From: Parasporobacterium paucivorans DSM 15970
Lineage (GTDB): Bacteria; Bacillota; Clostridia; Lachnospirales; Lachnospiraceae
Reading direction: 5' to 3'
Assembly (NCBI RefSeq): GCF_900141895.1
Contig: NZ_FQYT01000004.1
Span: forward strand, 62,001 to 126,000
DNA: 64,000 nucleotides
The position numbers and the translations under genes were made by a program. Of this stretch, positions 8,856-34,595 are shown one piece after another. The stretch's first letter is position 1, and each line of letters begins with the position of its first letter. The notes below the pieces were generated by a model, which saw only the letters and a list, made by a program, of their open reading frames with translations, made no database searches and was not told the DNA's origin.

Positions 8856-10151
8856 TTATTTCTTTGAGTTCCCCTGCATAAAGCTCACAAACTGGGCGGC
8901 ACTTCTTCCTGAGAGTCCTCCATGGCTTACTTCCCACTTATTTGCTTCCCTCAAGAGCTCTTCTCTGTCCGTATCCAGCCCGTGTCTTCCAGCCAGCTCC
9001 AGAACTATTCTTTCAAATTCTTTTTTGTCCGGCGAGCCAAAGTATATGGACACGCCAAATCTTGCGGCCAGGGAAAGTTTTTCCTGTACTGTGTCTGAAG
9101 TATGCAGATCCTGGGTCCGCTCTTCCTTGTCGCTCCATTTTTCCCGTATCAGATGTCTTCTGTTGGAGGTCGCATAAATCAGGACGTTATCCGGTTTTAT
9201 TGCAATTCCGCCTTCTATGATTGCCTTCAGGTATTTATATTCTATTTCATAGTCTTCAAATGATAAATCATCCATATAGATGATGAATCTGTAATTCCGG
9301 TCCTTGATTTTTTCAATCAGTTCCGACAGATATCGGAATTCATGCTTATATACCTCCACCATCCTAAGTCCCTGGGGATAATATTCATTCAGGATGGCTT
9401 TGACCGAAGATGATTTTCCGGTTCCGCTGTCCCCGAAAAGAAGCACATTATTTGCCGGCCTCCCTTCCACAAAAGCTCTGGTATTGTCGGTCAGCTTTTT
9501 CTTCTGCAGCTCATATCCTATGATATCATCCAACTGGATAGTCTGCGTATTGTTGACGGGCATCACCCGAAATCCTGTCGCCTCCTCTTTTAGGCGGAAT
9601 GCTTTGTGCAAGCCCAAAATTCCCACTCCGTGGCTATGATAGAAGTCTGTTATGATCTCATAGTATGCCTTTGCATCTTCCGCATTGAACAGGTCTGTTC
9701 CCAGCTGACAGATACTGTCTCTTATCCCGCAGTTGTAAACCTTGCTCTCTACCTGATTGTTTTCAAAATTTTCCAGCATGGAAAAGCAGTTCACACCGAA
9801 GGCCCGGTCGATTTTCGTTATATCGAAGCAGAAAAGTTCCCTAAAAATCCCAAAATCGTTCAATGCGATTTTCTTCAATCCCTCCAGGGGTTCTCTTGTG
9901 ATCTCGCAGGAGGTGCTGAAAGCATTTTCGTGATTGGCCAGAATATATGCAAGAAAATTCCTCCAGATATTTCCTCTGAAGCCAAAGCGCCCAGCCAGTT
10001 CTATCAGCTGATTCGCATACTTGTACAGCTCCCCGGTATTTTCTTTAAAAGAGAGGTCCTCACCTTCTGAAATTTCCATTAGTTCTGTTATACCATTAAA
10101 TAGTTCCTGCTCCTCAAAATTCCGATAGAGCAAAAGATGTCTGATATTCAT
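8856..10151 (-). CDS. DUF815 AAA+ ATPase at the end of the purine operon
   Basis: A 431-residue protein of the DUF815 family. An N-terminal helical region of about 200 residues is followed by an AAA+ core with Walker A GDSGTGKSS (about residue 240), Walker B IIYMDDLSF and a sensor-like YATSNRRHLI. The C terminus has the family pattern GGLSGRSAAQFVSF. Its cellular role is not established. The ATG at 10151 overlaps the TGA of the FAD-subunit gene by four bases (ATGA), so it is translationally coupled to the molybdenum hydroxylase operon. By analogy with CoxD/MoxR ATPases, which help mature Mo enzymes, a maturation role is possible but only inferred. Confidence 0.85.
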   Translation of the reverse strand: MNIRHLLLYRNFEEQELFNGITELMEISEGEDLSFKENTGELYKYANQLIELAGRFGFRGNIWRNFLAYILANHENAFSTSCEITREPLEGLKKIALNDFGIFRELFCFDITKIDRAFGVNCFSMLENFENNQVESKVYNCGIRDSICQLGTDLFNAEDAKAYYEIITDFYHSHGVGILGLHKAFRLKEEATGFRVMPVNNTQTIQLDDIIGYELQKKKLTDNTRAFVEGRPANNVLLFGDSGTGKSSSVKAILNEYYPQGLRMVEVYKHEFRYLSELIEKIKDRNYRFIIYMDDLSFEDYEIEYKYLKAIIEGGIAIKPDNVLIYATSNRRHLIREKWSDKEERTQDLHTSDTVQEKLSLAARFGVSIYFGSPDKKEFERIVLELAGRHGLDTDREELLREANKWEVSHGGLSGRSAAQFVSFMQGNSKK

Positions 10152-10975
10152 TGCCTGTTTCCTTCCGTAAGTTCGTTTTCCAGATATTCCCTAAGTATGT
10201 TCAGACAGACCGTTTTTCTGTATACAGCTTCAGACCGCTGGTCATCAATGGGACGGATTATTTTCTCATAGTATTGAATTGTCGCTGGAATGTCAATATC
10301 TGAAGCTTTTTTACCGATTAATTCTTTTTCTGCCTTTTGATCCCGCAGCACGGTTGTTCCTACAGCTCCAAAGGCAATCCGGATATCCGATACGATACCC
10401 GCCGTCAGTTCATGAATCCCGACAAAAGAAAGCTTTGCTATAGCCTGCGCCCTTCTGGCGCCTACTTTTTGATAGGAATATTCGTATTCCCCACTGGGTA
10501 TGATGATTTCCGTCAGCAGCCACGAAGTTTCCCTGGCAGTCTTTTTCACCCCGGTAATAAATTCTCTGATTGGTATTTCCCGGAAGCCGTTTTCTGATTC
10601 CAGACGCAGGTACGCATTCAGGGCGTATAGAATGGGCAGCGTATCTCCTGCAGGAGACGCGTTACATATATTCCCGCCTATCGTCCCCAGATTTCTGATG
10701 GAAGGGGAGGCTATCTGGCGTATGGATTCCTTCAGCACCTTCGGGATTCTTTCATCCCTAAGAAGGGCTGCGTAGGTAGAGCAGGCTCCTATCCGGATTT
10801 TCCCTTCCAGATTTTCAACTTTCTTCAGTTCGCTGATCTTGTCCAGGTACAGAAAGGGCTTTTTGAAGCTTTTTCCTACCATTATATCTGTACCGCCCGC
10901 ATAAGGAATGACATCTTCATCCCCCAGTATGCGGAGGGCTTCCGGAAGATTTTCCGGGAAATAAGCTTCTACCAT
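10148..10975 (-). CDS. Molybdenum hydroxylase FAD-binding subunit (XdhB/YgfM-like)
   Basis: A 275-residue FAD subunit of the xanthine dehydrogenase family. FAD-binding motifs are PYAGGTDIMVGK near the N terminus and IRNLGTIGGNICNASPAGD in the middle, with the CO dehydrogenase flavoprotein C-terminal domain after residue 165. It passes electrons from the Fe-S subunit to an acceptor. The ATG at 10975 lies inside the end of the Fe-S subunit gene (7-base overlap) and follows GGAGGG. It is the only FAD subunit here, so it may serve both Mo subunits of the operon. Confidence 0.9.
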   Translation of the reverse strand: MVEAYFPENLPEALRILGDEDVIPYAGGTDIMVGKSFKKPFLYLDKISELKKVENLEGKIRIGACSTYAALLRDERIPKVLKESIRQIASPSIRNLGTIGGNICNASPAGDTLPILYALNAYLRLESENGFREIPIREFITGVKKTARETSWLLTEIIIPSGEYEYSYQKVGARRAQAIAKLSFVGIHELTAGIVSDIRIAFGAVGTTVLRDQKAEKELIGKKASDIDIPATIQYYEKIIRPIDDQRSEAVYRKTVCLNILREYLENELTEGNRQ

Positions 10976-11436
10976 ATTCCTTTTCCCTCCTTCGCCGCAA
11001 GCAGAACTGCATCTACAATCATATTGTATCCCGTACATCTGCACAAATTTCCTGAAAGGGCATCCCGTATTTCTTCCTCCTGCGGATCCGGTACCCGCGA
11101 CAAAAGTGCCTCACTTGCCATGATCATCCCCGGGGTACAGAATCCACACTGCACTGCCCCGGTCTTATCATAGGCATCCTGGAGCACAGCAAACCGCTTT
11201 GTTTCCCGAAACCCTTCTATGGTGATGATGGATTGTCCCCTTATCCGTCCCATGGAAAGAATACAGGAGTTTACCAGCTCCCCGTTCATGAAAACACTGC
11301 AGGCTCCGCATTCCCCTTCTCCGCAGCCGCACTTTACTCCCGTAAGCCTGAACTCTTCCCGCAGCACGTCCAGTAGCCTGTGGGAGGCCGGCCGTTCTGA
11401 TTTTACCTTTTTTCCATTCAGCTCAAATTCTATCAC
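10969..11436 (-). CDS. Molybdenum hydroxylase 2Fe-2S subunit (XdhC-like)
   Basis: A 155-residue two-cluster iron-sulfur subunit. The plant-type cluster uses C38, C43, C46 and C58 (CGEGECGAC...NSC); the second cluster uses CGFCTPGM and CRCTGY. It links the Mo centre to the FAD subunit. The start is GTG at 11436, overlapping the TGA of the Mo-subunit gene (GTGA), with GGGAGG 6 bases upstream. This tight overlap implies fixed stoichiometry with its neighbours. Confidence 0.93.
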   Translation of the reverse strand: MIEFELNGKKVKSERPASHRLLDVLREEFRLTGVKCGCGEGECGACSVFMNGELVNSCILSMGRIRGQSIITIEGFRETKRFAVLQDAYDKTGAVQCGFCTPGMIMASEALLSRVPDPQEEEIRDALSGNLCRCTGYNMIVDAVLLAAKEGKGIW

Positions 11437-13544
11437 TCTGTTCCTCCCTTCCGGAGTGTCTCCATAATGCTTTCCGGCGTTGCCGGCACGCTGCAGAGTT
11501 CCCTGCCTATCGCATTTTCCACGGAAGCCACATAGGCCGGCGCTCCGCCGATCAATGGAAGCTCTCCGGCGCCTTTGGCTCCGGATGGACCGAATCTGTA
11601 TGCATTTTCAATAAATTCACATTTCATATTTACGATGTCCTTTGACGTAGGAATCATGTAATCCGTAAAACGGCTCTGCCATATCCTTCCGTCTTTCAGC
11701 GTCATTTTCTCCATGGAACCATACCCGATTCCCTGAAGAAGCCCACCTTCTGCCTGGCCTCTCATCACGGTCTCATCAATCGGTTTTCCAACATCAAACA
11801 CAGCCCATATTCCTTTTATCTCAGGCTGCAGCGTAGCCATATCCACTTCTGTTTCTATAATATTGACACCCCAGGAATACGCCGGATATGCGTCTCCAAA
11901 AAACCTGTCCATGTCCCAGGGAACGTTTTCGTGATGCACGTAATTTTCCTCAACCAGCTGCCTCTCGCCCTCTTTCCATTCGGCCTTCAGCCGTTTGGCC
12001 GCTTTTTCCAAAAGGTAGCCTGTCACCATGATAGAACGGGATGCCACCGTCGGGCCTGAGTCCGGCACCCTGTCCGTGTCCGGATTTTCAATAAGGATAT
12101 CATCCATCGGAATTTCCAATGCGGAAGACACCACCTTGCTGAAGGTGGTTTTGGTCCCCTGCCCCATGTCCGTATTGGATACCAGGATCTCCACGCGGCC
12201 GTCCGGACTTTTATCCAGCCTGACCCTGGCCTTGATGATATCCCTTTCTCCGGCTCCGGTAAATCCACAGCCATGGAAGAACACGGATATCCCTATTCCT
12301 TTTCTGTATCTTCCGTTCATCTTTCCATACAGGTTCATTTTATCTGTATAGCCTGACATATCTGCTGCCTTCTCTATCATCTCCTCCAGAATGACAGGAT
12401 CGCTGAAAATTCCTCCCGTGGAGGTAGCGCTTCCCTGCCTGACCAGATGTTTCCTTTTAAATGCCAGAACGTCTTCCTTCAGCTTTCCAGCTATATGGTT
12501 CATATGCATTTCAACCGCAAAGAAACTCTGTGGGGCTCCAAATCCCCTGAATGCCCCGCTCGGAACGGAATTGGTCTTTGCCACACGTCCGGACACCTTC
12601 AGATTAGGGATATCGTAGGCTCCTGCTGCAGAAATAAGGGAGCGTTGCAAAACAACGGCGGAAAGGGTCGTATAGGCTCCCCCATCGAGCAGCACGTCCA
12701 CTTCCATGGCGGTAACCCGCCCTCCGCTGACGGCGCTCCTGTATCTGAGGCGGGCTGGATGCCGTTTGGGGGTGGATGCCATATCTTCTGCTCTTTCCAG
12801 GATAATCCGTACCGGCTTTTCCAGCCGTATTGCTGCCACTGCGGCCCGGCAGGCCAGCATGGAAGGATAATCCTCCTTGCCTCCGAAGGCACCGCCTGTG
12901 GTTGTCTGTATAATTCTCACCCGGTCGTCCCCAAGACCTGTCGTATGCTTCACGGCCCTGAATACATAGTAAGGGCACTGCATGGAGCCTTTCACGGTAA
13001 CCTTCCCATCTTCATAAGACGCAATCACACCCTGGGGCTCCATGTACGCCTGTTCCTGATAGCCCGTATGGAATATCTCTTCCAATATTTCATCTGCCTC
13101 CAGAAAAGCTTTGTCCGCATCCCCTTTTGTGTATCCATATTCGAAATGTATTTCGCTGGCTTCCTCCGGGGAGTACACAGGGGGCTCTTCCTCATAAACA
13201 ACCTCTATGGCAGCTATCAGTTCATCTATGACATCCGGGTCAGGACCTGTAACCAGCAGGACTGGTTCCCCTATGTAGCGGACATATTCCGTGGGAAACA
13301 CCGGCATATCCTTCTCTACTATGATAACCTCATTGATAGAAGGTACATCATTCCCCCCAGTGCATGAATATCCGGGCGGAAACTCAGGCAGGGAAATTGC
13401 AGCAATCCTGGCATTTGCTTTGTCCGAATAGAGAAATTTGCCCGTCAGCGCGTCCTTCACATCATAATCGGCTATGTATCTGGCGGTGCCCGAAACCTTC
13501 TCATAATGATCCTTCTTTGTTACCGCATCCGAAATGTCCCGCAT
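11433..13544 (-). CDS. Molybdenum hydroxylase large subunit (xanthine dehydrogenase-like)
   Basis: A 703-residue molybdopterin-binding subunit of the xanthine oxidase family. It carries TTGGAFGGKED (Mo-ligand sphere), PSGAFRGFGAPQSF (substrate-binding arginine region) and GAKGAGELPLIGGAP with the catalytic glutamate. The family hydroxylates purines and related N-heterocycles using water. Purine substrate is inferred from the neighbours guaD, ssnA, ygfK, ygeW and yqeA. It forms a conventional three-gene enzyme with the Fe-S and FAD genes downstream. GGGAGGG precedes the ATG. Whether it is a selenium-dependent type cannot be read from sequence: no in-frame UGA or selenium gene was seen here. 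Confidence 0.88.
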   Translation of the reverse strand: MRDISDAVTKKDHYEKVSGTARYIADYDVKDALTGKFLYSDKANARIAAISLPEFPPGYSCTGGNDVPSINEVIIVEKDMPVFPTEYVRYIGEPVLLVTGPDPDVIDELIAAIEVVYEEEPPVYSPEEASEIHFEYGYTKGDADKAFLEADEILEEIFHTGYQEQAYMEPQGVIASYEDGKVTVKGSMQCPYYVFRAVKHTTGLGDDRVRIIQTTTGGAFGGKEDYPSMLACRAAVAAIRLEKPVRIILERAEDMASTPKRHPARLRYRSAVSGGRVTAMEVDVLLDGGAYTTLSAVVLQRSLISAAGAYDIPNLKVSGRVAKTNSVPSGAFRGFGAPQSFFAVEMHMNHIAGKLKEDVLAFKRKHLVRQGSATSTGGIFSDPVILEEMIEKAADMSGYTDKMNLYGKMNGRYRKGIGISVFFHGCGFTGAGERDIIKARVRLDKSPDGRVEILVSNTDMGQGTKTTFSKVVSSALEIPMDDILIENPDTDRVPDSGPTVASRSIMVTGYLLEKAAKRLKAEWKEGERQLVEENYVHHENVPWDMDRFFGDAYPAYSWGVNIIETEVDMATLQPEIKGIWAVFDVGKPIDETVMRGQAEGGLLQGIGYGSMEKMTLKDGRIWQSRFTDYMIPTSKDIVNMKCEFIENAYRFGPSGAKGAGELPLIGGAPAYVASVENAIGRELCSVPATPESIMETLRKGGTE

Positions 13545-13566
13545 ACTATCCCTCCCAAACCTTTTT

Positions 13567-16122
13567 TTATTTCCTGTAAAATGTTCCTTCTAAAGGAAGG
13601 CTGCTCCTGGCTTTTCCATCCAGCCTCTGATAAGCCAGGGCACAGGCCGGAGCTGTAGGTATCAGACATAATTCTCCTACGCCCTTCGCACCGTAGGCAT
13701 AAGGAATCCTGCCCTTTCCCTGGACAAATACAGTTTTGATTTCGGGAATCTGTGTCGCCCGCATGAGTCCCAGAGAAGAGAATTTCGTCTGCGGATATCC
13801 GTCCTTCATTCTGAATTCTTCCGTCAGGGCGTATCCCATTCCCATGACGATGCCACCTTCAATCTGGCCCAGGGCAGATTTCGGATTTACCACGGTTCCA
13901 ATATCATACGCGGCCAGAACCATCTTTATCTTTCCTGCTTCGTCCGGTATGACTACCTGGGCGGCATAGCTGTAGCTGACGTGGCTGACGGGGTTTTCCT
14001 TTCCGGAATTCATGGGATCTGTTTTGGGAGAAAACTCCCCATAGTACTCCTCCCCTTCCAGCTCAGACAAGGTACTCCCCAAAACCAGTTCTTCCTTCAG
14101 CAGGCCAGCCGCCCGCCGTACAGCCTCTCCGGTAATGACCGTCTGCCTGGACGCTGTACTGGTTCCTGCATCCGGTGTTCTGACCGTATCCGGTCTTTCG
14201 TGAATCGTTTCTTCCGGATCAAGATCTGCTGTCTCACATAAGATCTGGGTACATACGGTTGCAATTCCCTGGCCCATGCAGGCTGCAGAAGTCCGGATGT
14301 GCACCTTTCCATCCTCAATGCTGAGCAGGCACCTTCCGGTATCCTGAAGGCCTATGCCTGTCCCGCTGTTTTTCATTCCAATAGCCAGACCCGCATATGG
14401 ACTGGATTCAAATGTTTCCTTCACCGCCTCCAGACATTCTGCCATAGCCGTGCTCTCATCGGCAATCTGGCCATTGGGGAGCACCTGTCCTGGACGGATT
14501 GCATTTTTATATCGGAATTCCCAGGGAGAGATTCCCGCCATGGCTGCCAATTCATTGATGTTATTTTCCGTTGCAAAACAGCTCTGTGCCACCCCGAACC
14601 CCCGGAAGGCTCCGCATACTACGTTGTTTGTATATACAGCAATACCGGTTATATCGACCGTCTGACAATTGTAGGGACCTGCCGCATGGGTGCAGGCCCT
14701 TTGAAGGACAGGTCCTCCAAGGGATGCATATGCCCCGGTGTCTGCAATTAATTCCGCCTTCATGGCCGTAAGGTTTCCCTCTTCATCGCAGGCCGTCGTA
14801 AACTCCATTTCCATGGCATGGCGTTTCGGGTGGAAGTTCAGGCTTTCCTGTCTGGAAAATTTCACCTTCACGGGGCGCTTCGTGTACCACGCCATCAGAG
14901 CCGCATGGTGCTGGACGCTCATGTCCTCTTTTCCTCCAAAGCCTCCCCCGACCAGCATGGAAACACATCGAACCCTGTCCTCCGGAAGTTTCATCATCCC
15001 GGCTATTTCCCTCTGTTCATCATAAACAGACTGGGACCCCGTATAGACAATGAGTCCGTCAATACCATCCGGAACCGCCACCGCACACTCCGGTTCCAGA
15101 AAAGCGTGTTCCTGCCAGGGGGTGGAGTACTTCCGCGTCACCTTGAATCTGGAAGCTGCAATCACACCGTCTGCATCGCCCCGTTTGAGAAATTCCCTGC
15201 GGAGTATATTCCCATCCTCATGGATCAGCGGAGCACCCGGTTTCAGTGCATCCAGCGGATCTGTAACCGGTTCCATTTCCGTATAGTCCACTTCAATCAG
15301 CCCCAGCACTTCATCCAGACTTTCTTTTCTTCCTGTAGCCACCAGAGCCAGGGCATCCCCTATATATCTGGTTATGCTGCCTTCCCGGATCATGACATCC
15401 CAGTCCTTTTTCAAATGACCGGTTTTGTTGTCCGGAACATCTACCGCTGTAAGTATCCGTATCACATCCGGATGGGCCAGGGCCTTCGACAGGTCTATAC
15501 GGTTTATTCTCGCCCTTGGGTAGCGGGACCGCAGGGCCTTGGCATATATCATTCCCGGCATTTGTATGTCATCGGCATACAATCCATATCCCAGGACTTT
15601 CTCTTTCACATCCACACGTGGAAACGGTTCTGAAAGATGGGCTTTGTGAAAACATTTTTCAATGGAAAGATTTTCTCTGAATATTTGGGCGGCCAGGAGA
15701 ATGGCTTCCTCAATCCTGACGTATCCCGTGCACCGGCAAATGTTGCCCCGTATGGCCTGCTTCACATCTTCCCTGGAGGGATTAAGATTGACATCCAGCA
15801 AAGCCTTTGCACAAAGGACCATACCTGGAATACAGAATCCGCACTGGACAGCTCCTGCCTCCCCGAAAGCATGGACATAGACCTCCTTTTCCCTCTCCTC
15901 CAATCCTTCCACCGTAAGAATTTCCTTATCCGTAAACCGGGATATTTTCTGCACACAGGTTTTGACAGGCTTTCCGCCGGCCAATATCGTGCAGGCACCG
16001 CATACTCCCTCGTCGCAGCCATCCTTTACGGAAAGGATCTGCAGGTCATCCCGCAGATAATCCATCAGCTTTTTATCCTCTGAAACAGAATGTATTTTCC
16101 CGTTAATTTTTATTGTAAACAT
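13567..16122 (-). CDS. xdhD: Fused 2Fe-2S/molybdopterin hydroxylase (XdhD-like)
   Basis: An 851-residue fusion. Residues 1 to about 155 are a complete two-cluster Fe-S domain (DGCDEGVCGAC, CGFCIPGM, CRCTGY); the rest is a Mo-binding domain with VGGGFGGKED, CGAFRGFGVAQSC and GAKGVGELCLIPTAP, including the catalytic glutamate. This architecture matches E. coli XdhD (YgfN), which is encoded beside ssnA, ygfK and an FAD subunit. The exact substrate is not known from sequence; a purine is inferred. It lacks its own FAD protein and probably borrows the one 2.6 kb downstream. Start ATG follows GGAGGG; 21 bases separate it from hydA upstream. Confidence 0.88.
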   Translation of the reverse strand: MFTIKINGKIHSVSEDKKLMDYLRDDLQILSVKDGCDEGVCGACTILAGGKPVKTCVQKISRFTDKEILTVEGLEEREKEVYVHAFGEAGAVQCGFCIPGMVLCAKALLDVNLNPSREDVKQAIRGNICRCTGYVRIEEAILLAAQIFRENLSIEKCFHKAHLSEPFPRVDVKEKVLGYGLYADDIQMPGMIYAKALRSRYPRARINRIDLSKALAHPDVIRILTAVDVPDNKTGHLKKDWDVMIREGSITRYIGDALALVATGRKESLDEVLGLIEVDYTEMEPVTDPLDALKPGAPLIHEDGNILRREFLKRGDADGVIAASRFKVTRKYSTPWQEHAFLEPECAVAVPDGIDGLIVYTGSQSVYDEQREIAGMMKLPEDRVRCVSMLVGGGFGGKEDMSVQHHAALMAWYTKRPVKVKFSRQESLNFHPKRHAMEMEFTTACDEEGNLTAMKAELIADTGAYASLGGPVLQRACTHAAGPYNCQTVDITGIAVYTNNVVCGAFRGFGVAQSCFATENNINELAAMAGISPWEFRYKNAIRPGQVLPNGQIADESTAMAECLEAVKETFESSPYAGLAIGMKNSGTGIGLQDTGRCLLSIEDGKVHIRTSAACMGQGIATVCTQILCETADLDPEETIHERPDTVRTPDAGTSTASRQTVITGEAVRRAAGLLKEELVLGSTLSELEGEEYYGEFSPKTDPMNSGKENPVSHVSYSYAAQVVIPDEAGKIKMVLAAYDIGTVVNPKSALGQIEGGIVMGMGYALTEEFRMKDGYPQTKFSSLGLMRATQIPEIKTVFVQGKGRIPYAYGAKGVGELCLIPTAPACALAYQRLDGKARSSLPLEGTFYRK

Positions 16123-24887: not shown

Positions 24888-24938
24888 GAAAGTACCTCCC
24901 ACTTATTAAAATATTATATTTAATCTGTTAATGCAAAA

Positions 24939-25134: not shown

Positions 25135-26355
25135 ATGGTTCTGATGGATTTTAAACGAGTAAAAGAAAGCGCTGCAGATTATCAGGATAACATGGTTGCC
25201 TTTTTAAGAGACTTGATCCGGATTCCCGGCGAAAGCTGCCATGAAAAGGAAGTGATTGCCCGTGTCCGTCAGGAAATGGAGGCTCTTGGTTTCGACAGAG
25301 TCGAGACCGACCCTATGGGAAACATCCTGGGCTATATGGGAAGCGGCAGTACGCTTATTGCGTTTGACGCCCATGTGGACACCGTGGGTATCGGTGAATT
25401 AACGAACTGGAGTTTCGATCCCTATGAGGGCTTCGAGGACGAAACCAGAGTGGGAGGAAGAGGGGCTTCTGATCAGCTTGGCGGCATTGTGTCTGCCGTC
25501 TACGGCGCCAGAATAATGAAGGACCTGAACCTTTTGAGTGATAAATACACCGTTCTGGTATCCGGAACGGTCCAGGAGGAGGACTGTGACGGACTGTGTT
25601 GGCAGTATATAATCAATGAAGACGGCATACGACCCGCATTCGTGGTTGTTACTGAACCCACGGACGGCAACATTTACCGGGGGCAAAGAGGACGTATGGA
25701 AATCCGTGTAGAGGTCAAGGGCATATCCTGTCATGGGTCCGCTCCCGAGCGGGGAGATAATGCCATTTATAAAATGGCAGATATCATCCAGGAAGTACGC
25801 GACCTGAACGTACGGCTCGGATACGATGAATTCCTGGGGGCAGGCACACTGGCCGTCTCCCAGTCCTTTTACAGTTCGCCTTCCCGATGCGCAGTTGCTG
25901 ATATGAGCGCCATCTCCATCGACCGCAGGCTCACCGCAGGGGAAACGCAGCAGTCCGCCCTGGAAGAAATCAGAGAACTTCCTTCCGTAAAAAAATACGA
26001 TGCACAAGTCACCATGTATACATATGGCAGTCCCAGCTACACAGGTCTTGTATACCCTACTGACTGCTATTTTCCCACCTGGGTAATCCCGGAGGATCAC
26101 CCGGTTACAAAGGCTATGGTGGAAACCTACGAAGAAATGTACGGAACCCCCCAGGTAGGCAAATGGACCTTTTCCACCAATGGTGTCTCCATCATGGGGC
26201 GGTTTGGTATACCGTGCATCGGCTTCGGTCCCGGAAGGGAGGACCAGGCTCACGCCCCCAACGAAGTCACCTGGAAGGCAGATCTTGTCAAGTGTGCAGC
26301 CGTGTATGCCGCGCTTCCGGGCATTTACGGCAAACCGAGAAAGGAGAACATATAA
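25135..26355 (+). CDS. ygeY: YgeY-family M20 metallohydrolase
   Basis: A 406-residue M20/DapE-type dinuclear zinc hydrolase. Metal-binding motifs are [34 protein letters not shown] and a late histidine in EDQAHAPNE. YgeY belongs to the anaerobic purine cluster and is expected to cleave an amide in a ureido or acylated intermediate; the precise substrate is not visible. The ATG at 25135 sits close behind GGAAGGAAGG; an ATG three codons later is an alternative. Its stop overlaps the ygeW start (TAATG). Confidence 0.92.
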
Positions 26356-27545
26356 TGAAACTGCAGGATTACATCGATCACCTGGATAAGCTTGCTTTTG
26401 AGAATATGTACGGCAGTGATTTTTTCCTGACCTGGGAAAAATCAGATGATGAAATAGCAGCCACCTTTTTGGTTGCAGATGCCTTACGGCATTTGCGGCA
26501 GAGCAATACTTCGACCCGGATTTTCGACAGCGGCCTCGCTATTTCGCAGTTCCGGGACAATTCCACACGTACGCGCTTCAGTTTTGCATCCGCCTGCAAT
26601 ATGCTGGGTCTGGAAGTGCAGGATCTGGATGAGGAAAAGTCCCAGATTGCCCACGGGGAGACCATTCGGGAAACATCCAACATGATTTCTTTTATGGCAG
26701 ATGTCATCGGCATCCGGGACGACATGTACATTGGAAAAGGCAATGAATATATGCGTATGGTGGCAGATGCCGTCCAGGAAGGCTGGGAGGACGGTCTTCT
26801 GGAACAGCGTCCTTCCCTGATCAACCTTCAGTGCGATATCGATCATCCCACGCAGTGCATGGCGGATATGCTGCATATTATCCACCACTTCGGCGGGACA
26901 AAAAATCTGAAGGGAAAGAAACTGGCCATGAGCTGGGCATACTCCCCCTCTTACGGAAAGCCCCTGTCCGTTCCACAGGGCGTTATCGGCCTGATGACCA
27001 GAATGGGTATGGATGTTGTGCTGGCTCACCCGGAAGGCTATGAGGTAATGGCAAACGTGGAAGACGTGGCCATCCGGAATTCCAAGGCCTCGGGCGGAAG
27101 CTTCCAAAAAACAAGCAGCATGAAAGAAGCCTTTTCGGGAGCGGACATTGTTTATCCTAAGAGCTGGGCCCCCTATGCGGCAATGGAAGAGCGTACCCTG
27201 TTATATGAAAAGCGCGATTTTGAAGGGATCGGGGAACTGGAAAAATCCCTTCTTGCCAAAAACGCCGTACATAAAGACTGGGAGTGCACCGAGGACATGA
27301 TGGCATTGACCCGGGATAAGAGTGCCCTTTATATGCACTGCCTCCCGGCAGACATTTCCGGGGTCAGCTGTGTCCAGGGCGAAGTTGCCTCCTCTGTTTT
27401 CGACCGTTACAGGATACCACTATATAAGCAGGCAGGTTACAAACCATATATCATTGCAGCCATGATATTCCTCAGTAAGATCAAGGATCCTCAGAAAACG
27501 CTGCTGACCATGAGGGACCGGAAACTGAAACGATTCTTCGATTAA
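26355..27545 (+). CDS. ygeW: YgeW-type carbamoyltransferase
   Basis: A 396-residue member of the aspartate/ornithine carbamoyltransferase superfamily, the same length as E. coli YgeW. The carbamoyl-phosphate motif is STRTRFSF, with HPTQCMADM and MHCLPAD for the rest of the active site. It is thought to act in the phosphorolytic direction, releasing carbamoyl phosphate from a ureido compound for the next gene product. The ATG overlaps the ygeY stop, with AAGGAGAA upstream. The knotted carbamoyltransferase fold is known for the family and is not read from this sequence. Confidence 0.93.
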   Translation: MKLQDYIDHLDKLAFENMYGSDFFLTWEKSDDEIAATFLVADALRHLRQSNTSTRIFDSGLAISQFRDNSTRTRFSFASACNMLGLEVQDLDEEKSQIAHGETIRETSNMISFMADVIGIRDDMYIGKGNEYMRMVADAVQEGWEDGLLEQRPSLINLQCDIDHPTQCMADMLHIIHHFGGTKNLKGKKLAMSWAYSPSYGKPLSVPQGVIGLMTRMGMDVVLAHPEGYEVMANVEDVAIRNSKASGGSFQKTSSMKEAFSGADIVYPKSWAPYAAMEERTLLYEKRDFEGIGELEKSLLAKNAVHKDWECTEDMMALTRDKSALYMHCLPADISGVSCVQGEVASSVFDRYRIPLYKQAGYKPYIIAAMIFLSKIKDPQKTLLTMRDRKLKRFFD

Positions 27546-27559
27546 CCGGAGGGCATTCC

Positions 27560-28495
27560 ATGAAAAAACGCATTGTCATTGCTTTAGGCGGAAACGCATT
27601 AGGCAGCTCCCTCGCGGAGCAGATGATTGCCGTAAAAAAGACTTCCATGGCAATAGCCGGCCTGATTGCCCAAGGACATGACGTTGTCATTACCCATGGC
27701 AATGGTCCCCAGGTCGGCATGATTCAGGAAGCCATGGATATTTTTTCAGATATTTCCCCCAAGCATCCGCGGATACCCCTGACGGTCTGCGTGGCCATGA
27801 GCCAGGCATACATCGGTTACGATCTTCAGAATGCGCTGAGGGAAGAGCTGATCAACCGGGGAATAGACAAATCCGTCTCCACGGTTATCACCCAGGTCCT
27901 GGTGGATAAGGATGATTCGGCCTTTCAGAATCCGGTCAAGCCCATCGGGAATATCCTTTCCCAAGAGGAACTGGCGGCAGCCCTCGGAAATAATAAGCCT
28001 GTACTATTTGAGGCGGGAAAAGGCTACCGCAGAGTGGTGGCTTCTCCGCGCCCGATTGCCGTCATTGAGCAGGGCAGCATCAACGCCCTTCTGAACGCCG
28101 GTGAGGTGGTGATTGCCTGTGGCGGCGGCGGCATTCCCGTAGTGGCAGAGGGCAGACATCTTAGAGGAATTCCTTCCGTTATCGACAAGGATTTCTCCAG
28201 CTGCGTCCTGGCACAAAACATACAGGCGGAAACCCTGATCATACTGACCGCGGTCGAGAAAGTCTCCATATACTTCGGTTCTCCCCATCAAGTGGACCTG
28301 GACAGCATTACGACCACACAGGCACGGAAATACATGGAAGAAGGACATTTTGGGGCGGGCTCCATGCTCCCCAAAATCACAGCGGCCATCGAATTTGCTG
28401 AATCTGGCGAGCACAGGGTATCCCTTATCACGCTTCTGGAGAAGGCATCGGAAGGAATCGCCGGAAAGACAGGCACAAGAATCACGAAAGGATGA
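27560..28495 (+). CDS. yqeA: Carbamate kinase (YqeA/ArcC-like)
   Basis: A 311-residue amino-acid-kinase-fold enzyme that makes ATP from carbamoyl phosphate and ADP. Signatures are ALGGNALG, THGNGPQVG, the ACGGGGIPVV loop and VIDKDFSS. It follows ygeW, so substrate-level phosphorylation from purine-derived carbamoyl phosphate is the likely energy gain of the whole pathway. No arginine deiminase genes are near, which argues against an arc operon. Confidence 0.93.
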   Translation: MKKRIVIALGGNALGSSLAEQMIAVKKTSMAIAGLIAQGHDVVITHGNGPQVGMIQEAMDIFSDISPKHPRIPLTVCVAMSQAYIGYDLQNALREELINRGIDKSVSTVITQVLVDKDDSAFQNPVKPIGNILSQEELAAALGNNKPVLFEAGKGYRRVVASPRPIAVIEQGSINALLNAGEVVIACGGGGIPVVAEGRHLRGIPSVIDKDFSSCVLAQNIQAETLIILTAVEKVSIYFGSPHQVDLDSITTTQARKYMEEGHFGAGSMLPKITAAIEFAESGEHRVSLITLLEKASEGIAGKTGTRITKG

Positions 28496-28499
28496 ACGT

Positions 28500-29792
28500 A
28501 TGTTGAAAATAATCCGCGGGGATATTCTCTTTGCCCCAGACAAAAACAGATACGAGCTTTGGGAAGATTCCTATGTCTTAGTCAAAAAAGGTATCGTTCT
28601 CTCCGTTGTCAAGGAACTCCCCCTTTCCTGCTGGAACCAGCCCGTGGAGGATTTCCGCAACTGCCTGATTATTCCCGGATTCGTGGATCTTCACCTGCAT
28701 GCCTCCCAGTGGCCAAATATGGGAATCGGCTATGATTTTCAGCTCCTTGAGTGGTTGAAAAAATATACTTTTCCTCTGGAAAGCACCTTCAGCGATATGG
28801 AGACAGCCAGAAAGCATTACGAAAGTTTCATCCATGAGCTTTCGGCATCCATGACCACCAGGGCATGTATTCTGGCTACCCGGCACCTGCCCGCTACCCG
28901 CCTGCTGGTTTCCATGCTCAGAGAATCCGGCCTGGGGGCTTTCGTGGGCAAAGTAAACATGGACAGGAATGCGGATCCTCCACTGCTGGAAAATACGGAG
29001 GATTCCATCGAGGAAACCAGGCTGCTGGCACAGGAAATGCAGGAATTTGAGCAGTTCCATCCGGATACCCTGGTCCATCCTATCCTTTCGCCCCGCTTTG
29101 TCCCAAGCACCACGCCTGAATTGATGACTGCCCTGGGAAAGATGGCGCAGGAGTACGATCTCCCCATACAATCTCACCTGGATGAAAACCTGGATGAAAT
29201 CGCCTGGGTCAGACAGCTGCATCCAGGCGATCTTGATTTTGCCCATGTATACGAAAGGTTCCACCTTCTGAAACCGGATAAAACCATCATGGCCCATTGC
29301 ATTCATATGACCGAGGATGAAATACGTCTAATAAAGGACAGACGGATTTTCATCGCTCATTGTCCATCTTCCAATTGCAACCTGGCAAGCGGCATTATGC
29401 CTCTCCGAAAATACCTGGATAATGATATGCTGATAGGAATCGGTTCGGATATTGGAGGAGGGAACACCCTGGATATGCGTGCTCATGTGCAGCTGGCCAT
29501 GCAGATGTCCAGGCTCTATTATTCCGCCAACCGCTCCTTTAAACCTGTATCTGTGCGGGAGGCCTTCTACCTTGCCACCAAAGGCGGAGGACGCTTTTTT
29601 GGCAAGGTGGGAAGCTTTGAAAAAGGATATGAATTTGACGCCCTGGTCATAGACGACGGATACAAAAAAGGATTACCGGATAAGCCTTCCCTGGAAACCA
29701 GGCTGGAAAAGCTTATAAATACCGATAATCCTGTTCTTATAATCAAAAAGTACGTGCGCGGAAAAGAAATTCAGCGGTCTTCCCTGAAGTAG
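28500..29792 (+). CDS. guaD: Guanine deaminase-like amidohydrolase
   Basis: A 430-residue zinc amidohydrolase. GFVDLHLHASQWPNMG followed by LLEWLKKYTFPLE is the guanine deaminase signature; further metal-site motifs are QSHLDEN, AHCIHMTEDE and GIGSDIGGG. The enzyme converts guanine to xanthine plus ammonia and would feed the Mo hydroxylases. It starts four bases after the yqeA stop. Its 3' end overlaps the convergent permease gene by 22 bases. Confidence 0.9.
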   Translation: MLKIIRGDILFAPDKNRYELWEDSYVLVKKGIVLSVVKELPLSCWNQPVEDFRNCLIIPGFVDLHLHASQWPNMGIGYDFQLLEWLKKYTFPLESTFSDMETARKHYESFIHELSASMTTRACILATRHLPATRLLVSMLRESGLGAFVGKVNMDRNADPPLLENTEDSIEETRLLAQEMQEFEQFHPDTLVHPILSPRFVPSTTPELMTALGKMAQEYDLPIQSHLDENLDEIAWVRQLHPGDLDFAHVYERFHLLKPDKTIMAHCIHMTEDEIRLIKDRRIFIAHCPSSNCNLASGIMPLRKYLDNDMLIGIGSDIGGGNTLDMRAHVQLAMQMSRLYYSANRSFKPVSVREAFYLATKGGGRFFGKVGSFEKGYEFDALVIDDGYKKGLPDKPSLETRLEKLINTDNPVLIIKKYVRGKEIQRSSLK

Positions 29793-30721
29793 TTTATTCC
29801 GCAGCCTGCAGGTTGGGAATTTTCCTTCGACTGCCTTATGGAAGTAACTATCAGAACCAGAGCCGTAACAAGGAAAGGCAGCATATCATAAAAGGCTTCC
29901 GGAATTCCCACGGAGGGAACGTAGTAGCGGAGTATATTGAACGCGCCAAAGACAAAGGACCCAAATATTGCCCTGACGGGGCTCCAGGCAGCAAATATTA
30001 CAAGGGCAACGGCAATCCAGCCAAAACCTCCCACGCTGTTGCTTATCCAGACACCGTTATTGATGATCATGGCGCAGTAAACTCCGCCTATCCCACATAT
30101 TCCGCCGCCAAGGATGATATTGATGTATTTCAGCTTTGTAACCCTTATTCCCGCTGCGTCCGCAGCGGAAGGATTCTCTCCAATCGCTCTCAGGCTGAGG
30201 CCTGTCTTTGTTTTCTTCAGATACCACCAAAGTACGATGGCAATGACAATTCCGAGGTATACAAAGGGATTATAGGAGAACAGAAGCTTTCCGACCACAG
30301 GAAGATTACTGAGGCCCTCTATATTGATGCTTCTCATCTGCCCTGTAATCTTTTCGGGAAGTTTAAGAGTTCCCGATTCGGAAAGTCCAAGGTAGTATAA
30401 TCCAAGAAAATTTCCCAGTCCGATTCCGAATATCGTAAGAGTAAGACCGGTGACATTCTGGTCTGCCATAAAGGTTACGGTAAGTACAGCGTATATGGCC
30501 GCACCTACTGCCCCGCCCAGAAAGGCGGCAATCAGGGAAAGCAGAAAGCTGTCCGAGTAATAACCCACCATGAATCCCGAAACGGCTCCCATGGACATCA
30601 TCCCTTCCACTCCCAGGTTCAGGTGTCCGGACTTCTCATTCAATATCTCCCCAACCGTTCCGTATAAAAGAGGTGTGCCGGAAATCACCGCGGCTGCAAT
30701 GAATTTTATAACCATCTCCAT
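29771..30721 (-). CDS. ABC transporter permease, nucleoside/purine type
   Basis: A 316-residue integral membrane protein of the branched-chain/nucleoside permease superfamily (YufQ/NupQ-like), with about eight hydrophobic segments. Conserved stretches are LNEKSGHLNLGVEGMMSMG and a loop LSLRAIGENPSAADAAGI. It pairs with the permease upstream, sharing one base (TGATG), and works with the BMP-type binding protein. The substrate, a nucleoside or free purine, is inferred from family and position. Confidence 0.88.
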   Translation of the reverse strand: MEMVIKFIAAAVISGTPLLYGTVGEILNEKSGHLNLGVEGMMSMGAVSGFMVGYYSDSFLLSLIAAFLGGAVGAAIYAVLTVTFMADQNVTGLTLTIFGIGLGNFLGLYYLGLSESGTLKLPEKITGQMRSINIEGLSNLPVVGKLLFSYNPFVYLGIVIAIVLWWYLKKTKTGLSLRAIGENPSAADAAGIRVTKLKYINIILGGGICGIGGVYCAMIINNGVWISNSVGGFGWIAVALVIFAAWSPVRAIFGSFVFGAFNILRYYVPSVGIPEAFYDMLPFLVTALVLIVTSIRQSKENSQPAGCGINYFREDR

Positions 30722-31815
30722 CAGTCAGTCCCTCCTTTTTTTCTGCGGATAAATCTGTACCTAACGAAAAATTCACATCCCAGGACGAAAAACAGTATGA
30801 TTCCCTGCAGCACCTCGGATGAGTCCGTCGAAAGTCCGAACTCAGACTGTATGACCGTACTTCCTTTTTCCAGAACGCTGAACAGAAATGATACCAGAAG
30901 AATGGTAAACGGATTCAGCCTGGCCAGCCATGCCACGATGATGGCGGTAAATCCCACGCCTCCGGCAACTGCTGTTGCAAGGGTCATATCTGAGCCTGTT
31001 GCAGATACCATGCCAGTAATCCCGCAGATTCCACCGCTTATGAACATGGTCCTGAGGACAATTTTCCTTACATTCATTCCGGCATATCTGGCAGTGGCTT
31101 TACTTTCTCCCACAACGTTGATTTCATACCCGTGCTTTGAATATCTCATATAAATGAAGACCAGGACAACCAGGATGATTCCGATTATCCAGCCTGCCTG
31201 CACCCCAAAAATCTTGTCCAACTGTGCATTTTTTGAAAATCTTGCAATTTTGGGAAATCCCCCGGATTCAGGGTCTGCCCAGGGTCCATCCCGAAGGAAT
31301 ACAATGATATAAAGGGCAATGTAATTCAGCATCAGGGTAAACAGTGTCTCGTTTGTGTTATACCGCACTTTGAAAAACGCAGGAATCAGACCCCATATTC
31401 CACCACCGATGATACCGGCGATAATCATCAGGATTATAAGCAGAACATGCGGAAGGCCGTCAAAAAACAGGGCGAAATAGGAAGCAAATATTGCCCCCAT
31501 GATTACCTGTCCCTCCGCACCGATATTCCAGAACCTCATCCGGAATGCCAGGGTGATTCCCAAAGAGGTAATCAAAAGCGGTATCATGTATTTGATGGTA
31601 GCCTGTATGGCCATTTCGCTTCGGAAGGATCCCCGGATAATCGTCCAGTATACAGAAATAGGGTTATGCCCAACTGCAAGTATGAAAACACCTCCGGCTA
31701 CCAGGGCAAGGCCAAAAGCCGCAAGCCTTAGAAACATGGCGTTTTTAGCCGTCAACTCATTTCTTTTTCCAATTCGGATAAGTGGTTCTTTCGCAGTATT
31801 GTTCATATTAGCCAT
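30721..31815 (-). CDS. ABC transporter permease, nucleoside/purine type
   Basis: A 364-residue membrane protein of the same superfamily (YufP/NupP-like), with about nine to ten hydrophobic segments and the coupling-loop pattern GYEINVVGESKATARYAGM. NIGAEGQVIMGAI is typical of this permease group. The start overlaps the end of the ATPase gene by 8 bases, so the subunits are probably co-translated. Confidence 0.88.
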   Translation of the reverse strand: MANMNNTAKEPLIRIGKRNELTAKNAMFLRLAAFGLALVAGGVFILAVGHNPISVYWTIIRGSFRSEMAIQATIKYMIPLLITSLGITLAFRMRFWNIGAEGQVIMGAIFASYFALFFDGLPHVLLIILMIIAGIIGGGIWGLIPAFFKVRYNTNETLFTLMLNYIALYIIVFLRDGPWADPESGGFPKIARFSKNAQLDKIFGVQAGWIIGIILVVLVFIYMRYSKHGYEINVVGESKATARYAGMNVRKIVLRTMFISGGICGITGMVSATGSDMTLATAVAGGVGFTAIIVAWLARLNPFTILLVSFLFSVLEKGSTVIQSEFGLSTDSSEVLQGIILFFVLGCEFFVRYRFIRRKKGGTD

Positions 31816-33343
31816 GAGCCTCTGCCTCCCCTCTTACGGAATCGGTCATCATAAGCCCAATCTCCTCTTTGGTCGTCTCCGCCGCCGCTACGATTCCGGT
31901 CACCTCTCCATGGCACAGAACCATAATACGGTCAGAAAGCTCCAAAAGGACATCCAGATCTTCACCGATAAATATTATGGCAACATTTTTCTTTTTTTGT
32001 TCGTTAAGCAAATCATATATTACGTAGGAGGAATTTATGTCCAGCCCCCTCACCGGATAGGCCGTAATGAGAAGGTTTGGACTGGATTCTATCTCCCTTC
32101 CAAGCAGTACTTTCTGAACATTTCCGCCCGAAAGATGCCTGACCGGTGTTTCCGTGCCAGGAGTACGGATTTCCAGCTTGCCGATCAGGTCCTGCGCCAG
32201 CTTTTTGGCCGGCTTTTTATCAACGAAAATTCCTTTATTCTTGTTGTAGCTTTTCAGGAGCATATTGTCAGTCATCCCCATGGAAGCGACAAGCCCCATT
32301 CCCAGCCTGTCCTCGGGAACAAAGCTCATATGTATGCCCAGGTCGATGATTTCTTTGGGTGATTTCCCAATGATATTTTCCTTTTCATAGAGGATCGCAC
32401 CTTTTTTTGGTCTCATAAGTCCCGCAATCGTTTCACAGAGTTCCTTCTGACCGCTGCCCGCAATGCCTGCCACCCCCAGTATCTCGCCCCGGAAAATATC
32501 AAAACGAACATCATCGATGGCTTTTGTACCGTCCTCCCGGTAAACCGTCAGGTCAACCACTTCGAGCAGCTTATCCCCCCTGTCGACTTCCAGGCGTTCT
32601 ATTTCCAGGCTGATGGGCCGTCCTACCATAAGCTCCGTCAATTCGGTAACGGACGTTTCACTGGTTTTCACCGTATCGATGTATTCTCCTTTGCGCAGGA
32701 TGACGACCCTGTCGCTGACAGCCATTACTTCATTCAGCTTATGAGTGATGATTATGATGGACCTTCCCTGATCCCGCATTTTTCTGAGTATTTCAAACAG
32801 TTTTTCGGTTTCCTGAGGAGTCAGAACCGCCGTAGGCTCATCCAGGATCAGCACATTCGCCCCCCTATAGAGAGCCTTCATGATTTCCACCGTCTGCTTC
32901 TCGCTTACTGACATGTTATATACTTTCTGTTCCGGATTGATTTCCAAACCGAATTTCCGGCTCAGTTCCACAATCTCCTGTTTCAGGACTTTCGGCTTTC
33001 TTCTCTTTTCTTTTGTTCCCAGCACGATGTTATCCATCGCATTAAAAACCTCTACCAGTTTAAAATGCTGGTGAATCATTCCAATCCCAAAATTCATTGC
33101 ATCCGTGGGAGAGTTTATGACCGCTTCCTCCCCGTTGACCAGGATGGTGCCCTGATCTGGATGGTAGATACCCGAAATCATGTTCATGAGGGTTGTCTTG
33201 CCCGATCCGTTTTCGCCCAAAAGCGCCAGAATTTCACCCTTTTCCAGCGTAAGATTAATATTGTCATTTGCCTTTACACTTCCAAAGGATTTCGTTATTC
33301 CCCTGCATTCAATTGCGTAATTTGTACTCTTCGTCTCCGCCAT
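31808..33343 (-). CDS. ABC transporter ATP-binding protein with two nucleotide-binding domains
   Basis: A 511-residue protein of the RbsA/YufO type. Domain 1 has Walker A GENGSGKTT, a changed signature MSVSEKQ and Walker B VLILDEPTA. Domain 2 has a degenerate Walker A (GIAGSGQKE), signature LSGGNVQK and a changed Walker B (LLITAYPVRGLD). Asymmetric sites of this kind are normal for the family. It energises uptake by the two permeases. AGGTGG lies 5 bases before the ATG. An upstream hairpin separates it from the binding-protein gene. Confidence 0.92.
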   Translation of the reverse strand: MAETKSTNYAIECRGITKSFGSVKANDNINLTLEKGEILALLGENGSGKTTLMNMISGIYHPDQGTILVNGEEAVINSPTDAMNFGIGMIHQHFKLVEVFNAMDNIVLGTKEKRRKPKVLKQEIVELSRKFGLEINPEQKVYNMSVSEKQTVEIMKALYRGANVLILDEPTAVLTPQETEKLFEILRKMRDQGRSIIIITHKLNEVMAVSDRVVILRKGEYIDTVKTSETSVTELTELMVGRPISLEIERLEVDRGDKLLEVVDLTVYREDGTKAIDDVRFDIFRGEILGVAGIAGSGQKELCETIAGLMRPKKGAILYEKENIIGKSPKEIIDLGIHMSFVPEDRLGMGLVASMGMTDNMLLKSYNKNKGIFVDKKPAKKLAQDLIGKLEIRTPGTETPVRHLSGGNVQKVLLGREIESSPNLLITAYPVRGLDINSSYVIYDLLNEQKKKNVAIIFIGEDLDVLLELSDRIMVLCHGEVTGIVAAAETTKEEIGLMMTDSVRGEAEAHG

Positions 33344-33370
33344 TAATCCACCTGCGCCTAAATATTAATT

Positions 33371-33396
33371 AAGGGGCTGTTGACAAACAGCCCCTT
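33371..33396 (-). terminator. Hairpin between binding-protein and ATPase genes (attenuating terminator or RNA-processing stem)
   Basis: AAGGGGCTGTT and AACAGCCCCTT form an 11-bp perfect stem with a 4-base loop. On the minus strand it is followed by AATTAATATTT rather than a clean T run, so partial termination or protection of the upstream binding-protein message is more likely than full termination. Confidence 0.75.
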
Positions 33397-33446
33397 AGCT
33401 TAAATCAATTTTATTGTTTCACACTTTATTTGTCAATTAAATTAGC

Positions 33447-34595
33447 TTATTTAACTACAATATTTTTGAAGTACCAGTTGATGCCTCCGGTGATTTCCGC
33501 ATCGGACAAGGTGGATCCTTCTTTGCCGACCGTCGTTCCTTCATTTGTTTCGATTACTCCATCAAAAACATTGAAAGATCCATCGAGAATAGACGCTTTT
33601 GCCTGATCAACCGCTTCCGCCGTTCCATCTGCACAGAAAGCGGAGAGATCCGTAATACCAACAAGTCCTTCTTTCATTCCACCATAATAGTTGGAACCAT
33701 CCCATGTTCCATCAATTAAACTCTGGACAGCTGCCGTGTAGTATACACCCCAGTCCCACACTACCGAGGTAAGCGTTGCATCCGGAGCATCCTTGCTCAT
33801 ATTGGAGTTGTATCCAACTCCCCAGACGCCGGCTTCTTCCGCCGCAAGCTGTGGATTTGGTGTATCACAGTGCTGGCCGATTACATCACAGCCTTCTGCT
33901 ATTAATGCTTTTGCCGCACTGGTTTCTGCTTCCGGATCATACCAGCTGTTTGTGACTTTTACAAATACCTGTGCCTCCGGATTTACGGAATATACACCCA
34001 TTGCAAATGCATCCAGTCCACCCGTAACTTCAGAATTTTCCTTATCCATTGCAGCAACAAAACCAACCTTGTCCGATTCGGTCTTAAGGCCCGCTACAAT
34101 GCCTGCAAGATATCTTGCCTGATAAATTCTGCCGAAATAGTTGATGAAGTTCTGTCCGTTTGACTTATAGCCGGATCCATGAGCAAAATATACGTCCGGG
34201 AATTCCTCTGCAAGCGCCTCGCAGGTATCCATATAGCCCCAGCTTGTTGCGAAGATAATATTGCATCCGTCTTCGATACATTCTCTCATGGCTGTTTCAA
34301 TAGCTGTCGGATCACTGTCTGAAATATTGTTCTTACGTATAATCTGACTGTCTTCCAGACCCAGGTTTTGCTGCATTGCCACGATTCCCTGGTCGTGGGT
34401 AAATGTGTATCCGGATCCTTCCGCCGGATCGGATATGTGAATCACGCCAACTTTGATGTCCTCTTTGGCAATCCCCCCTGCTTTGGTAGTCTCGGAACCA
34501 CTGGTGGTTGCTTCATCCCCTGAGCCGGAACATCCAGCAAGAACAAGTGACAGCGATAAAACAAGTGACAGAGCAAGGCCGATAATCTTTTTCAT
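33447..34595 (-). CDS. BMP-family substrate-binding lipoprotein
   Basis: A 382-residue lipoprotein. The N terminus has KK, a hydrophobic run and the lipobox LVLAGC at about residues 17-22, followed by a Ser/Thr/Glu-rich linker to residue 45. The rest is a Bmp/Med (PnrA-like) periplasmic-binding domain with GVIHISDPAEGSGYT and HGSGYKSNGQNF. Known members bind purine nucleosides. Here, beside guaD and the Mo hydroxylases, a purine base, nucleoside or urate is a reasonable guess. It is the first gene of the transporter operon. Confidence 0.92.
   Translation of the reverse strand: MKKIIGLALSLVLSLSLVLAGCSGSGDEATTSGSETTKAGGIAKEDIKVGVIHISDPAEGSGYTFTHDQGIVAMQQNLGLEDSQIIRKNNISDSDPTAIETAMRECIEDGCNIIFATSWGYMDTCEALAEEFPDVYFAHGSGYKSNGQNFINYFGRIYQARYLAGIVAGLKTESDKVGFVAAMDKENSEVTGGLDAFAMGVYSVNPEAQVFVKVTNSWYDPEAETSAAKALIAEGCDVIGQHCDTPNPQLAAEEAGVWGVGYNSNMSKDAPDATLTSVVWDWGVYYTAAVQSLIDGTWDGSNYYGGMKEGLVGITDLSAFCADGTAEAVDQAKASILDGSFNVFDGVIETNEGTTVGKEGSTLSDAEITGGINWYFKNIVVK

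Follow-up and report, generated by a model that had tools for sequence, protein, structure and literature searches.

A reductive, oxygen-independent pathway of urate degradation is known, and its chemistry has been demonstrated for enzymes of E. coli, C. difficile and C. sporogenes (PMC12507026, PMC12990295). As set out in 2025 (PMC12507026), the gene set reduces urate to 2,8-dioxopurine, dearomatises it, opens both rings and cleaves two ureido groups, and the final enzyme, YgeX, converts 2,3-diaminopropionate to pyruvate and ammonia. The present study focused on a window of 64,000 nucleotides (the whole stretch analysed, positions 62,001 to 126,000 of contig NZ_FQYT01000004.1) from Parasporobacterium paucivorans DSM 15970, which belongs to contig 19 of a draft genome of 2.44 Mb that is 97.5% complete. 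Judged by its gene families, a locus within this window (10148-34595) encodes a variant form of the same pathway with a probably different last step. YgeX was not detected, and its place appears to be taken by two pyridoxal phosphate (PLP) enzymes, the CysK-like P0001 (23063-24538, minus strand) and the ThrC-like P0002 (21812-23053, minus strand), which are proposed, from family scores, distribution, motifs and a structural model of each, to form a YgeX-replacing pair. It is probable, if well short of certain, that YgeX is absent and that the two proteins jointly convert diaminopropionate into pyruvate plus ammonia in the urate pathway.

The locus shares with the systems of E. coli and C. difficile (PMC12507026) and of C. 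sporogenes (via PMC12990295) an XdhAC/XdhD-type enzyme, YgfK, SsnA, HyuA, YgeW, carbamate kinase and YgeY, as well as an arrangement in divergent operons. It differs from them in the two PLP enzymes that stand in the stead of YgeX, and in a BMP-type ATP-binding cassette (ABC) importer that adjoins the genes, where the described systems have the permease UacT. Gene families were scored against curated NCBIfam cut-offs (in bits). The SsnA, YgfK, HyuA, YgeY and YgeW families each exceed such a cut-off, and a molybdenum (Mo) enzyme of the XdhAC or XdhD type is present (TIGR03311, 1343 bits versus 830). The cluster genes co-occur again in many other genomes, so their grouping here is not a matter of chance. 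An earlier note, made from the letters of this DNA, had matched the locus to the E. coli-type anaerobic urate cluster, and this was borne out, the chemistry having since been proven for the enzymes of the three organisms named above. The same note had counted two extra PLP enzymes, but these are not simply additions: E. coli has the single PLP enzyme YgeX at this place, and the present genome has two non-orthologous ones.

Across this 97.5% complete genome the best score on the YgeX model NF006058 was 95.6 bits (cut-off 276), and the model TIGR03528 gave no match at an E-value of 1e-40. The protein with the best weak match, encoded on contig 30, was considered as a YgeX candidate and rejected, as it lies over the cut-off of the threonine ammonia-lyase model TIGR01127. 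On NF006058, P0002 reached 51.5 bits and P0001 was not listed, as against 548 to 619 bits on TIGR03528 for YgeX from three relatives; the two PLP proteins are therefore not YgeX, and neither matches that family. What they have in common with YgeX is that they are PLP enzymes of fold type II and are proposed to achieve the same net reaction. As to the active-site residues of YgeX, the literature searched gave no paper on its structure.

The distribution of these genes argues for a replacement. Two blind samples of Clostridia were drawn regardless of PLP genes, one from the class and one from the order, and SsnA exceeded its curated cut-off in 22 of 393 and 49 of 393 genomes, respectively; as the genome of P. 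paucivorans is in both, there are 70 distinct SsnA-positive Clostridia. YgeX without P0001 was found in 53 of them (18 from the class and 35 from the order sample), P0001 without YgeX in 14, both in two (G054 and G599), and neither in one (G593), in whose genus two other genomes (G589 and G614) carry P0001. Fisher tests gave p values of 9e-12 by genome and 2e-6 by genus (30 genera with YgeX only, seven with P0001 only, two with both, G593 being placed with its genus), both of which ignore relatedness and are indicative. The P0001-only genomes span seven genera and six families, and two of these families (f1 and f5) hold both kinds. P0002 was present in 13 of the 14, and in the remaining genome (G832) the contig stops inside P0001. 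A search for P0002 orthologues (at least 43% identity) in 36 chosen genomes, made up of 33 P0001-positive genomes and three P0001-negative controls, found them in 27 of the former and none of the latter. Within this set, all 18 SsnA-positive genomes that lack YgeX have P0002 (in G049 the SsnA score is under the curated cut-off), and all three SsnA-positive genomes with P0001 and without P0002 (G054, G473 and G481) have YgeX. SsnA is also frequent among genomes with P0001, being found in 45 of 51 at an E-value of 1e-100 (44 of 51 at the curated cut-off) versus 22 of 393 at the curated cut-off in the class sample.

Gene order points the same way. Related loci were those of the best 80 of 545 confirmed P0001 relatives, with neighbourhoods read by translated searches; the genomes are drafts, and contig ends cut some of the loci. 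The YgeX and SsnA screens of P0001 genomes used 46 of these 80 loci together with the G-series genomes. In five genomes (G539, G585, G590, G598 and G602) the run is YheO-YgeY-YgeW, then a carbamate kinase (matched in one), a trio of Mo hydroxylase genes and the CysK-like gene, with the ThrC-like gene further on, and in two YgeX genomes (G735 and G775) it is YheO-YgeX-YgeY-YgeW. In four others (G459, G461, G464 and G480) P0002 and SsnA are 0.14 to 1.4 kb apart in divergent orientation, and no urate gene was found within the stretch examined around P0001. Relatives of P0001 with at least 61% identity occur, among the matches listed, in Lachnospiraceae, Oscillospiraceae, Halanaerobiales, Desulfosporosinus, Synergistaceae, Treponema and Chloroflexota records. 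Taken together, the distribution and operon evidence make the replacement of YgeX by non-orthologous enzymes a well supported reading, and we infer that the pair acts on diaminopropionate.

P0001 scores 88.6 bits on the cysK model, below the curated 351, and an ordinary CysK is encoded separately at C21 of this genome. Its AlphaFold model, which is of high confidence (mean predicted local distance difference test score, pLDDT, 91.4), resembles cysteine synthase and CBS in fold but is extended at the ends. The motif HRIEGIGD contains an aspartate, Asp302, that was found in 52 of 52 members of the family, while ordinary CysK proteins from this genome and 24 relatives have alanine at that position in 25 of 25 cases. 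Asp302 aligns with Asp232 of the cysteine (hydroxyl) lyase Fn1055 from Fusobacterium nucleatum, a site that differs between the wild type (5b53) and the D232N variant (5b55) in the displayed alignments. The reaction catalysed by Fn1055 is that of cysteine with water, giving serine and hydrogen sulfide (PMC9865163); the enzyme shares with P0001 the common CysK/CBS core and the motif HRIEGI(S/G)D, the aspartate of which is mutated in 5b55, whereas P0001 is about 160 residues longer and has about 21-22% identity over the core. P0001 also has the loop STGN(Y/F), compared to SGNT in ordinary CysK, and threonine, not serine, precedes the loop glycine in 52 of 52 members. By this likeness, P0001 might carry out the reaction of diaminopropionate and water to serine and ammonia, the 3-amino group being swapped for water.

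Such a product would fit the presence of a phosphoserine aminotransferase gene (SerC) near the pair in some genomes. SerC lies directly or closely downstream of P0001/P0002 in seven of the 80 loci (L046, L047, L069, L088, L092, L095 and L100; a score over the cut-off was confirmed for L100), four of which also have a phosphoglycerate-dehydrogenase-like gene, and in L088 it sits between the ThrC-like gene and SsnA within a full urate cluster. These same seven loci, with SerC and at times SerA, could also be read in favour of a scheme in which P0001 joins diaminopropionate (or aminoacrylate) and phosphate to give O-phosphoserine, and SerC and SerA, running backwards, lead on to 3-phosphoglycerate with one ATP saved. 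This is very improbable: in 73 of the 80 loci SerC was not seen nearby (in some because of a contig end), in the present genome it lies elsewhere on the contig (by eye), the step to phosphoserine is by our reasoning probably uphill, and the match between Asp302 and Fn1055 points to water.

P0002 has the fold of threonine synthases in its likewise confident AlphaFold model (mean pLDDT 88.9) and 35-39% identity to the solved enzymes 2zsj, 6cgq, 1uim and 2d1f, from which it differs in two motifs. Where all four have NSVNPxR(I/L)EGQKT, P0002 has NAAINPYLxEGKKT, and where they have VGNAGNI, P0002 has VGDGCTI. The serine and arginine of NSVNPxR, common to the four solved enzymes and known for binding the substrate phosphate, are each found in 0 of 37 members of the P0002 family, all 37 of which carry Asp242. 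Another threonine synthase, of the PF14821 type, is encoded at C17 of this genome, and P0002 was accordingly judged unlikely to be its housekeeping threonine synthase; a PF14821-type ThrC also occurs in 21 of 25 P0002 genomes. Threonine and serine dehydratases are among the fold neighbours of P0002, as is YgeX (4d9m, rank 45). P0002 could be pictured as deaminating serine to pyruvate, following on from P0001. Taken by itself, this division of labour, with P0001 making serine and ammonia and P0002 making pyruvate from the serine, is possible rather than probable. It is favoured because of the match between Asp302 and Fn1055, the SerC neighbours and the motif changes in P0002.

The next best explanation is that P0002 alone is a new diaminopropionate ammonia-lyase, with P0001 as a helper (for instance a D/L-diaminopropionate racemase) or as the maker of another amino acid from the pathway. 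Its fold neighbours would suit this role, as would the two genomes in which YgeX holds the place of P0002 beside P0001 (G054 and G599) and the four in which P0002 is near ssnA while P0001 is unlinked (G459, G461, G464 and G480). P0001 is nonetheless present in every P0002 genome without YgeX, in a set that was chosen for P0001 and in which P0002 without P0001 was sought only in three controls. The helper role as a racemase is also opposed by the invariant threonine before the loop glycine of P0001, since the second base of serine racemase is the serine at this position. The explanation as a whole is regarded as unlikely, if the closest contender to the serine route.

A number of observations weigh against replacement of YgeX by the pair. 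Of the 45 genomes with both SsnA and P0001, 18 also carry YgeX, and in G054 and G599 P0001 adjoins YgeX, P0002 being missing. SsnA was undetected in six of 51 P0001-positive genomes, and several loci (e.g., L050, L082 and L085) have P0001 alone with urate genes out of view. Kinship also enters the counts, with G153, G230 and G213 belonging to one genus and G539, G585, G590, G598 and G602 to another. P0002 scores above the curated cut-offs of two threonine synthase models (NF006050, 320 versus 303 bits; TIGR00260, 215 versus 167 bits), and the PF14821-type ThrC was not found in four of the 25 P0002 genomes (G459, G463, G464 and G480). Since P0001 can occur with YgeX, without SsnA or standing alone, it may have another or added role, and the pair is not interchangeable with YgeX in every host.

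The four genomes with no PF14821-type ThrC detected bear in particular on the possibility that the pair serves ordinary cysteine, threonine or serine synthesis, and that a housekeeping threonine/serine ammonia-lyase handles diaminopropionate and makes YgeX dispensable. The genome does have a threonine ammonia-lyase, and both PLP proteins carry biosynthetic family names. Against this stand the near-exclusive distribution of the pair with respect to YgeX, the separate ordinary CysK and ThrC of this genome, and the motifs that P0002 has lost and P0001 has acquired, which together make the idea improbable. An OrtB-type thiolase function of the two PLP enzymes was entertained as a further idea.

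Among the related loci, seven (L057, L060, L064, L082, L085, L091 and L112) have P0001 alone in a conserved non-purine neighbourhood of rod-shape/FtsW-like, sugar-isomerase-like and glucose-6-phosphate-isomerase-like genes (named by eye), and in the genomes of L082, L085 and L112 SsnA was undetected. A different urate-type cluster was seen in L041 (G049), where a dihydroorotate-dehydrogenase-like protein occupies the place of YgfK together with an adenine deaminase and a weak SsnA match, and which also holds a distant pair of CysK-like (36%) and ThrC-like genes.

Turning to the remainder of the locus, all of the genes that had been named (guaD, ssnA, two Mo hydroxylases, ygfK, a hydantoinase, ygeY, ygeW, carbamate kinase and a BMP-type importer) are present as open frames, in two divergent runs and a converging ABC transporter. 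The layout of two back-to-back operons and a converging transporter was confirmed, except that a cold-shock-domain gene (24684-24902, minus strand, by domain match) with a terminator-like hairpin (24658-24636) sits between the runs. The place of the cold-shock gene is held by a YheO-like PAS regulator in many relatives. The likely true starts, picked on the basis of ribosome-binding sites and agreement with the family, lie inside the longest open reading frames for SsnA (21815), YgfK (20461), YgeW (26355), guanine deaminase (28500), the flavin adenine dinucleotide (FAD) subunit of the second Mo hydroxylase (10975) and the CysK-like protein (24538). The minus-strand run, in order of transcription, begins with P0001 and P0002, followed by the ring-opening aminohydrolase SsnA (20475-21815; NF005540, 660 versus 444 bits), YgfK (17543-20461; TIGR03315, 1246 versus 835 bits), which is a predicted dihydro-forming reductase of 2,8-dioxopurine, and the hydantoinase HyuA (16144-17520; D-hydantoinase model TIGR02033, 571 versus 393 bits). 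Next comes the XdhAC-type, selenium-dependent enzyme, which is like xanthine dehydrogenase (XDH), with fused Fe-S and Mo domains (13567-16122), and which is presumed, from the role of its C. sporogenes counterpart in PMC12990295, to be the reductase of urate to 2,8-dioxopurine. The run ends with the second, three-subunit Mo hydroxylase: an Mo subunit of 703 amino acids (11433-13544; best model pucD, 355 bits, cut-off 784), a [2Fe-2S] subunit (10969-11436; family match below the cut-off) and an FAD subunit (10148-10975; best model XdhB, 165 bits, cut-off 310). All three subunits are under the curated cut-offs, and their best models are of the XDH type. A third Mo hydroxylase on contig 29 of this genome (8937-11774) is barely over the cut-off of the NCBIfam molybdopterin-dependent aldehyde oxidoreductase model (1102 versus 1100 bits).

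The plus-strand run consists of the M20-family ureido-group hydrolase YgeY (25135-26355; TIGR03526, 663 versus 322 bits), the carbamoyltransferase YgeW (26355-27545; TIGR03316, 737 versus 500 bits), which would act by phosphorolysis to give carbamoyl phosphate, a carbamate kinase (27560-28495; subfamily model NF009007, 344 versus 266 bits; arcC, 343 versus 358, slightly under) and a guanine deaminase (28500-29792; TIGR02967, 333 bits, under the cut-off of 375). The energy logic proposed earlier, from a ureido product by way of YgeW, carbamoyl phosphate and carbamate kinase to ATP, fits this gene set. Guanine deaminase and an XDH are also found near the E. coli cluster, and therefore are not extra here; together with purine-base uptake through the ABC importer they would feed the urate pathway.

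The importer genes are all on the minus strand and comprise a substrate-binding lipoprotein of the BMP type (33447-34595), an ATPase (31808-33343) and two permeases (permease 1, 30721-31815; permease 2, 29771-30721), the last three being profile matches below the cut-off. Its linkage to the urate genes, which had been thought to go beyond the E. coli form, does so as a recurring variant: of the 61 related loci that span at least 12 kb, 18 showed a BMP gene. Among the 33 of 80 loci with at least two core genes, BMP was found in 12 and UacT in five with no overlap (p = 0.13, not significant). By structure-database alignment, the nearest solved relatives of the BMP protein are 3s99, in which adenine is modelled, and AtzT (6pi5, guanine-bound), which binds guanine with a dissociation constant of about 110 nM (PMC6834077). 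AtzT has the same BMP fold, and four of its six guanine-contact side chains appear, on reading the alignment, to be kept (Tyr45, Trp194, Ser97 and Glu165), while the other two are changed as in 3s99 (His for Asn218 and Asp for Asn220). These likenesses to purine-base-binding proteins agree with the proposed link of the importer to purines and suggest a purine base as the likely cargo. Carriage of a nucleoside or a B6 vitamer instead is quite unlikely. The best NCBIfam models for all four genes are those of a putative B6 transporter set (NF047927-NF047930), and the related BmpD and BmpA of B. burgdorferi bind nucleosides; but all four subunits fall far below the B6 cut-offs (the BMP protein, for instance, reaches 76 bits where 400 are required), the solved proteins closest to the BMP protein carry purine bases, it has retained the two residues that stack on the ring, and the importer recurs beside urate genes, as in the 12 of 33 loci above.

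The span first assigned to the locus, 8856-34595, holds the cluster from 10148 onwards, but its low edge is a DUF815 AAA ATPase gene (8856-10151, minus strand, by domain match), the start of which overlaps the stop of the gene for the FAD subunit. It was rejected as a member, since none was seen in any of the 80 related loci. No known RNA element was matched in the window at the Rfam gathering threshold, and a promoter scan of the intergenic region was uninformative (four sites versus 3.2 in shuffles). Further along the window, about 22 kb from the cluster, a LysR regulator, a TOBE-domain protein and an HTH/PBP-domain protein lie in a row (57057-59231, plus strand) and could be a molybdate-sensing set, and an IS1182-family transposase is located at 45040-46551 (minus strand).

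The pathway itself was already known, and what is added here is a variant, genuine and widespread, in which one step has apparently been replaced. No description of a CysK-like/ThrC-like pair in the urate pathway was found in the literature searched, although earlier mention is possible, since key urate papers lay outside that search. This matters for surveys, as efforts to count and engineer the urate degraders of the gut are under way with a view to gout. In PMC12542679 (mSystems), ygeX is among six markers, a rule that can miss or under-score clusters with P0001 and P0002; the same source reports ygeY, ssnA and ygfK in a genome of the Christensenellales. The survey of PMC12507026 marks YgeX by any PF00291 protein near ssnA, which takes in P0001 and P0002 alike and cannot separate their clusters from those with YgeX. 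Surveys keyed on YgeX can misjudge urate degraders, given that 14 of the 70 SsnA-positive Clostridia have P0001 and not YgeX. More tentatively, and rather doubtfully in its entirety, a second, widespread ending of the pathway may be envisaged, in which a new family (P0001) makes serine and ammonia, a former threonine synthase (P0002) makes pyruvate, and urate carbon enters serine, glycine and one-carbon metabolism. Urate is reported to relieve the growth defect that C. difficile shows when glycine and threonine are left out of the medium (PMC11448449), an effect that would agree with urate carbon passing into amino acids. If the serine route is correct, urate would feed amino-acid synthesis in these bacteria besides providing energy.

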